Shown here in pieces: positions 37,630-39,013 of a stretch of 64,000 bases of DNA (the stretch's first letter is position 1; each line of letters begins with the position of its first letter). This DNA comes from Desulfovibrio aminophilus (lineage in GTDB: Bacteria; Desulfobacterota; Desulfovibrionia; Desulfovibrionales; Desulfovibrionaceae), in NCBI RefSeq assembly GCF_023660105.1, contig NZ_JAMHGA010000032.1, forward strand, positions 1 through 64,000, written 5' to 3'. The notes beneath the pieces are model-generated. The model had not been told where the DNA came from, ran no database searches, and saw only the letters and a list, made by a program, of their open reading frames with translations. The position numbers were made by a program, and so were the translations under genes.

Positions 37630-38331
37630 TCAGACGGCCAGGGCCGTGGCGGGCCGCGCGGGCAGGGTGGCGGTTTCCCGCTTCCCGCCGCCGTGGCACA
37701 GCGCGCGGAAGCGTTCGGCGTGGTTCACGAATGCCCGCGCCACATCAGGGTCGAACTGGCTGCCCGAGCAGCGCCCGACTTCGTCCACCACCCTCTCGAA
37801 GGTGCGGGCCGGGCGGTAGGGGCGGTCCTGGAGCATGGCCGACACCGAGTCGGCCAGGGCGATGACCCGGGCCCCGAAGGGGATGGACGCGCCCGCCAGC
37901 CCGGCGGGATAGCCCTTGCCGTCGAAGCGTTCGTGGTGGTGCAGGATCATCTCCACCACCCCGGCCTCGGCCAGGGGCCGCACCGGCCGCACGATCTGCG
38001 CGCCGATGGCCGGGTGGCGGCGCAGCTCGCCCCATTCGGCCACGCTCAGCGGGCCGGTCTTGCGCAGCAGGGCGTCGGAGACGCCGATCTTGCCGATGTC
38101 GTGCAGGTGCCCGGCCAGGTGGATCAGGTCGGCCTGGAGCGGGGCCGCGCCCTGGAGCAGGGCCAGCTCCCGGGCCAGGTCGGCCACCTCGTCGGAATGG
38201 CGCCAAGTGTGGTGGTCCTTGGCGTCGATGGCGTTGCCCAGGGATTCCGCGAACTGGTGCAGGATGAGGGCGATGCAGCCGCAGGACGCGCCGGAAGCGG
38301 GGCGCTGCTCACAGGATGGGGACGGGATCAT
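37630..38331 (-). CDS. HD-GYP-domain phosphodiesterase
   Basis: A 233-residue single-domain protein of the HD-GYP class, which degrades c-di-GMP. Metal ligands are visible: RHSDEV (His), HLHDIGKIG (HD pair), HPAIG, MILHHHERFDGKGYP (His pair plus the GYP motif). The N-terminus has three Cys (one, then CGC). There is no receiver or sensor domain, so control is probably transcriptional. HD-GYP enzymes with known structures use iron-containing sites, which fits the Fur-like operator in its promoter. The start at 38331 follows AGGAGG. Confidence 0.92.
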   Translation of the reverse strand: MIPSPSCEQRPASGASCGCIALILHQFAESLGNAIDAKDHHTWRHSDEVADLARELALLQGAAPLQADLIHLAGHLHDIGKIGVSDALLRKTGPLSVAEWGELRRHPAIGAQIVRPVRPLAEAGVVEMILHHHERFDGKGYPAGLAGASIPFGARVIALADSVSAMLQDRPYRPARTFERVVDEVGRCSGSQFDPDVARAFVNHAERFRALCHGGGKRETATLPARPATALAV

Positions 38332-38378
38332 GAAGAGCCTCCTGGTTTTCGGGACCGCTCGCGGCCGCCGTTGCCCCG

Positions 38379-38407
38379 GTCTTATTGAAAATGATTTTCA
38401 AAGTCAA
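38379..38407 (-). promoter_or_regulatory. Sigma70-type promoter for the HD-GYP gene, with operator in the spacer
   Basis: On the minus strand the -35 is TTGACT (complement of 38402-38407) and the -10 TAAGAC (complement of 38379-38384). The spacer is exactly 17 bp and coincides base for base with the palindrome at 38385-38401. The predicted leader is ~40 nt. Confidence 0.75.
38385..38401 (-). promoter_or_regulatory. Fur-box-like operator
   Basis: TTGAAAATGATTTTCAA is a perfect 8-1-8 inverted repeat. It matches the 7-1-7 Fur consensus (TGATAAT-N-ATTATCA) at 12 of 14 positions. Occupancy would block RNA polymerase between -35 and -10. Identification as Fur rather than another Fur-family repressor is inference. 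Confidence 0.75.
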
Positions 38408-38419
38408 CATGCGAGGGTG

Positions 38420-38446
38420 AAAAAGGCCGCGCGGGGCGGCCTTTTC
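38420..38446 (-). terminator. Intrinsic terminator of the 38454 gene
   Basis: A 10-bp stem AAAAGGCCGC/GCGGCCTTTT with a GCGGG loop, ending in TTTTTC on the minus strand. Confidence 0.85.
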
Positions 38447-38453
38447 CGGGCGG

Positions 38454-38936
38454 TCAGCCCTGGACGGATTCCACGATGGGCCGGTGCTGGCTCAGGTCGT
38501 AGAGCCCCCGCAGGGCCACGGCCAGGCTGTAGTGGGGAATCTTCTCGAAGCGGATGAAGCCGATGTTCTTGCCCTCGGCCAGGGAGCAGAGCGGCGGCAG
38601 ACCGCGCGGCACGGGGAAGGCCAGGAGCGCGGAGTCGATGGCCGCGAGCCTTGAGGCGTAATGCTCTTTGAGGTAGGACACGATCTGGTCCCGCTCCTGG
38701 AGCGTGAAGGCCTCCAGGATGACCTTGCGGCTGCTCTCCGGGTCGGGCGCGCCCTCGATGGCCGGGCCCAGGAGGGCGTTCCAGTCGTAGCCGCCTTCCT
38801 CGGCCGGATCCCAGGCGTGGCGGAAGAGGTGGACCTCCACGTCGCGGCGGCCCTTGAAGCTCTTGATGGTCATGGACAGGGCGTAGGCCCGCTCCACGGG
38901 CGGCGGGGCGGCGGGGGCGGCGAGGCGGATATCCAT
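38454..38936 (-). CDS. Protein of unknown function
   Basis: A 160-residue soluble protein with no recognised motif. After a Pro/Ala-rich N-terminus it has a mixed alpha/beta composition (YALSMTIKSFKGRRDVEVHLF, GKNIGFIRFEKIPHYSLAVAL). Codon usage matches the neighbours, and it has its own ribosome site (GGGAG eight bases before ATG 38936) and terminator. It is divergent from uvrB across a 77-bp gap. A longer reading to 39005 would run into the uvrB promoter. No function is proposed. Confidence 0.75.
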   Translation of the reverse strand: MDIRLAAPAAPPPVERAYALSMTIKSFKGRRDVEVHLFRHAWDPAEEGGYDWNALLGPAIEGAPDPESSRKVILEAFTLQERDQIVSYLKEHYASRLAAIDSALLAFPVPRGLPPLCSLAEGKNIGFIRFEKIPHYSLAVALRGLYDLSQHRPIVESVQG

Positions 38937-39013
38937 GCGGAACTCCCGGTTCAAACGTTGACGGAACCCATGGGTCTGCATACTGATTTTGAGTCCCGGA
39001 GACAAGGGAAGGC

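Follow-up and report, generated by a model that had tools for sequence, protein, structure and literature searches.

The HD-GYP gene and its predicted operator-promoter

The window, by which we mean the whole 64,000-nucleotide stretch of DNA that was analysed, carries on its minus strand a gene for an HD-GYP protein preceded by a palindromic Fur box set within a promoter-like sequence. The features of the locus are as follows.

37630..38331, minus: single-domain HD-GYP protein of 233 aa, monocistronic and convergent with aat (Pfam matches, alignment)
38337..38343, minus: ribosome-binding site (AGGAGG) 5' of the ATG (sequence, by eye)
38379..38384, minus: -10-like hexamer TAAGAC, matching TATAAT at three of six positions, directly after the operator (sequence, orthologue operators)
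38385..38401, minus: core delta-Fur box, a 17-bp perfect palindrome, TTGAAAATCATTTTCAA on the minus strand (sequence; match to the consensus of PMC545781)
38385..38407, minus: 23-bp composite operator TTGACTTTGAAAATCATTTTCAA, in which two Fur boxes overlap, offset by 6 bp, and whose outer hexamer TTGACT doubles as the -35 (score of the second register; recurrence of the 23-mer pattern in relatives and in the same genome)
38402..38407, minus: -35-like hexamer TTGACT, five of six positions (sequence, orthologue operators)
38417..38447, minus: terminator-like hairpin (GGCCGC-CCCGC-GCGGCC, then TTTTT) parting the HD-GYP gene from the same-strand upstream gene (by eye)

The protein matches PF13487 (E 3e-29) and PF01966 (E 5e-20), in agreement with the single-domain HD-GYP product that had been predicted, and its gene stands alone, its stop facing the aat stop head-on. 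The terminator-like hairpin was not called by a simple scan, in which the T run may have been absorbed into the stem. Between the HD-GYP gene and uvrB, at window positions 38454-38939 on the minus strand, lies the gene for a 161-aa protein that is conserved within the genus (82-93%) and gives zero Pfam matches.

The perfect palindrome TTGAAAATGATTTTCAA (38385-38401) is located 54 bp 5' of the HD-GYP ATG. Read along the minus strand from 38407 to 38379 the sequence is TTGACT-TTGAAAATCATTTTCAA-TAAGAC, in which the 17 bp between the hexamers form an 8-1-8 palindrome, so that the original description of a perfect palindrome filling a 17-bp spacer is exact. Shuffles of the window give an expectation of 0.01 matches with up to three mismatches, and a search of both strands of the window at this tolerance returned the palindrome site as its sole match. 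The whole 3.54-Mb genome contains one exact copy of the palindrome and zero copies of a reversed control pattern. The original prediction also correctly counted agreement with the E. coli-type 7-1-7 Fur consensus at 12 of 14 positions. A more fitting standard, however, is the delta-proteobacterial Fur box WTGAAAATNATTTTCAW, which Rodionov et al. (2004; PMC545781) obtained from sequences upstream of feoAB, and the palindrome agrees with it perfectly. Box scores given below in bits refer to a position weight matrix built from published predicted sites, not footprints.

Fur sites in Desulfovibrio consist of two boxes overlapping with a 6-bp shift (PMC545781), and the same arrangement is found at the HD-GYP operator, where a second register scoring 16.1 bits begins at TTGACT; the supposed -35 is therefore the outer part of the operator. 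When 84 orthologue operators from 19 genera were aligned on the 23-mer, 65 began with TTGA. TA followed immediately, at offset 23, in 49 operators representing 14 genera, whereas the other offsets between 20 and 39 each had it in 16 or fewer. The same 23-mer and -10 geometry is present at several other Fur-box promoters of this genome, beside FeoB, TonB receptor, Fur-family, flavodoxin and GGDEF genes; thus the exact fit represents a common Fur-promoter style of the family and is not peculiar to the HD-GYP gene. Genus g38 differs in that the box, by eye, sits farther downstream of a possible -35 and -10. As for the promoter proposed at TTGACT and TAAGAC, the hexamers and their 17-bp spacing are as claimed, but TTGACT is also part of the operator, TAAGAC is a weak -10, and a simple sigma-70 scan of the site called no promoter. 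Because the 23-bp operator and -10 geometry recurs, the comparison of sequences supports a predicted overlap of the promoter by Fur, and hence repression, which had been expected from the placement of the box.

Conservation of the box and its place in the Fur regulon

Conservation was assessed across 199 genomes of the same family, from which 114 orthologue matches with E ≤ 1e-50 were examined. A Fur box of at least 20 bits lies within 1500 bp upstream of 85 of these orthologues, and one of at least 23 bits upstream of 66, compared with none of 16 multidomain HD-GYP paralogues at 20 bits; the motif scan of orthologues that had been suggested as a check was thus passed. In a shuffle control taking the best of 30, 20 bits was reached in 7 of 114 cases and 23 bits never. 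A quick tree groups all 114 orthologues apart from the controls, with low support at the base (0.39). Conservation of the box spans about 19 genera. In about a quarter of the orthologues, conspicuously in part of genera g26, g22 and g5, no box was detected, and some lineages, such as part of g26, appear to have lost it. Among the loci tested, aat/uvrB synteny is found only in the genus of the window, indicating that rearrangement has not parted box and gene. The boxes of genus g5 are mostly found some 520-630 bp upstream, 5' of a small TPR gene directly preceding the HD-GYP gene, and the two genes are probably an operon.

Within the genome itself, where the regulon was sampled by pattern searches, Fur boxes of the HD-GYP type adjoin or precede feoB, TonB receptors, an AraC-type regulator, a Fur-family gene, flavodoxin and TPR proteins, and a PAS-GGDEF gene. 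The last of these carries a Fur box as strong as that of the HD-GYP gene and in identical geometry. The genome has six Fur-family matches and at least 15 HD-GYP matches, and it carries dsrA, so the organism is very probably a sulfate reducer. A perfect delta-Fur box, its retention at most orthologues and the occurrence of the same box type at iron genes of this genome give good support to the Fur control originally claimed.

Several sites in this genome merit separate description. The PAS-GGDEF gene (L042:14032-15224, G000:C41) lies close downstream of feoB and has a 23-bp Fur operator of 30.6 bits; its likely ATG is only about 10 bp past a -10-like TAAGTC, which suggests a leaderless transcript or a later start. 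At a second site (L045:1423-2580, G000:C27) a Fur box is followed by flavodoxin and then by two small TPR proteins, which are similar to the product of the TPR gene immediately 5' of HD-GYP in genus g5 and perhaps also to genZ (Rodionov et al.); the TPR protein and HD-GYP may work together. At a third (L044:2340-2535, minus; G000:C15:105339-105534) a perfect 23-bp Fur operator and promoter, TTGACATTGAAAATCAATTTCAA-TAGAAG, points into a gap without an obvious gene between convergent cydB-like and HI0933-like flavoprotein genes, both named by eye. The gap could encode a small RNA of about 160 nt that is C-rich, has a very stable predicted fold (z -5.98) and a GC hairpin near its end, and is 92% identical in one genus mate; in the other its conservation is partial (71%), and cydB is again its neighbour. 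This candidate has no Rfam family above the gathering score, and it could be a RyhB-like iron-sparing RNA.

Among the Fur targets predicted for Desulfovibrio vulgaris and D. desulfuricans G20 are hdd, which encodes an HD-domain protein, and gdp, which encodes a GGDEF protein (Rodionov et al., 2004; PMC545781). That regulon has in common with the one described here the box consensus, the double box overlapping by a 6-bp shift, the HD-domain and GGDEF members, feoAB and flavodoxin. The published hdd is described only as an HD-domain (PF01966) protein, and the HD-GYP gene is likely its orthologue. Neither published hdd box string occurs in 288 family genomes, where a pattern covering both gives only three other sites, and the published D. 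vulgaris hdd box has no match in genus g38 with up to three mismatches. The status of the HD-GYP gene as an ordinary member of the Fur regulon is firmly supported at the level of sequence, and is mostly known already.

Active site of the HD-GYP protein

Alignment with PmGH, a trinuclear iron HD-GYP phosphodiesterase (PMC4159591), places H45, H77, D78, H106, H132, H133, D161 and K81 opposite PmGH H189, H221, D222, H250, H276, H277, D305 and K225, with a constant offset of 144. Seven of the eight PmGH metal ligands are present, as is the D183/K225 pair, and the HD, HH and GYP motifs are all found with their metal and catalytic residues. The active site thus looks intact, and a protein with these residues should hydrolyze c-di-GMP.

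The original prediction placed the protein in a class using iron in its active site. In PmGH, E185 bridges the second and third metals, and the residue at this position separates putative trinuclear from binuclear HD-GYP enzymes (Bellini et al.; PMC4159591). The corresponding residue here is His41, and none of 22 aligned orthologues has Glu or Asp; the protein consequently lies outside the PmGH-type trinuclear-iron subgroup, which has Glu or Asp at this position. Since the third-iron ligand is absent, a binuclear phosphodiesterase with a two-metal centre is predicted, in which the metal may or may not be iron, and the assignment of iron is at best weakly supported. The extra N-terminal cysteines, which had also been pointed out, are not conserved outside the closest relatives and were rejected as a metal or redox site. 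What the analysis shows directly is the box, the fact that it is conserved together with the gene, the operator geometry and the active-site residues.

Iron and c-di-GMP turnover

The most probable reading, to which we assign a probability of about 0.87, is that the monocistronic HD-GYP gene has a Fur-repressed promoter with its operator at this site, so that a fall in iron would lead to derepression and c-di-GMP turnover. From the features of the locus we infer binding by Fur, a response to iron, enzyme activity and an effect in the cell. Metal-loaded Fur would bind the 23-bp operator as two 17-bp boxes shifted by 6 bp; since the -35 lies within this operator, which also takes up the entire spacer, binding of Fur and of RNA polymerase would be mutually exclusive. 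When iron falls, repression would lift and the single-domain enzyme would be made, hydrolyzing c-di-GMP via its two-metal centre. It would share its regulon with the PAS-GGDEF protein, the feoB genes, the TonB receptors, flavodoxin and the TPR proteins. The PAS-GGDEF gene, with a Fur box of equal strength and identical geometry, would be derepressed along with it, so that c-di-GMP would be made as well as broken down. Iron limitation would then increase c-di-GMP turnover instead of simply shrinking the pool, and for the same reason the sign of the change in c-di-GMP is not predictable. A plain fall is less likely than increased turnover or local control.

Such a fall was the outcome originally proposed, with iron starvation raising HD-GYP, lowering cellular c-di-GMP and favouring motility. 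Although the apparently intact active site and the predicted Fur-repressed promoter are both consistent with it, the box at the PAS-GGDEF gene and the number of other HD-GYP matches in the genome argue against it, leaving this outcome weakly supported and rather unlikely. Nor is the sign general: in Vibrio cholerae, Fur represses a cyclase and activates a phosphodiesterase operon and so lowers c-di-GMP, an effect reported to be iron-independent (PMC7641913). The V. cholerae system, in which Fur controls cdgD and vieSAB, has in common with the HD-GYP gene the direct action of Fur on c-di-GMP enzymes, which in the present case is a prediction, but it differs in involving EAL and GGDEF proteins and no HD-GYP, in having repressor sites far upstream of the -35, and in its reported independence of iron.

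The operator might alternatively belong to another Fur-family repressor, PerR- or Zur-like, in which case the signal would be peroxide, zinc or manganese. The six Fur-family matches leave room for such a regulator, but feoB, a TonB receptor, flavodoxin and a Fur-family gene of the same genome have the same box type, and the published delta-Fur box, itself obtained upstream of feoAB, has the same consensus; we therefore consider this highly improbable. That the palindrome is an AT-rich inverted repeat arisen by chance at a constitutive promoter, an idea that draws on the AT-richness common to Fur boxes and promoters, is refuted on sequence grounds by the negligible number of matches expected in the window and by conservation across many genera with no such box at the paralogues.

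With Fur-controlled turnover as the preferred reading, a further extension may be considered, speculative and quite unlikely: that across the family a cyclase and a matching phosphodiesterase are expressed from fused operator-promoters under iron limitation, forming a separate iron-gated c-di-GMP circuit in which, possibly, a two-metal phosphodiesterase uses a non-iron metal when iron is scarce.

The finding confirms and extends the regulation predicted in 2004 and is not of a new kind; what is added here is conservation across many genera with controls, the geometry of operator and promoter, and corrections concerning the metal centre and the sign of the effect. The expectation that iron starvation must lower c-di-GMP is corrected by the operator type shared between genes for synthesis and breakdown. 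The prediction that sulfate-reducing bacteria put c-di-GMP turnover under Fur now has strong comparative support from many genera, and such Fur-governed turnover would matter for biofilm growth and corrosion on iron surfaces.
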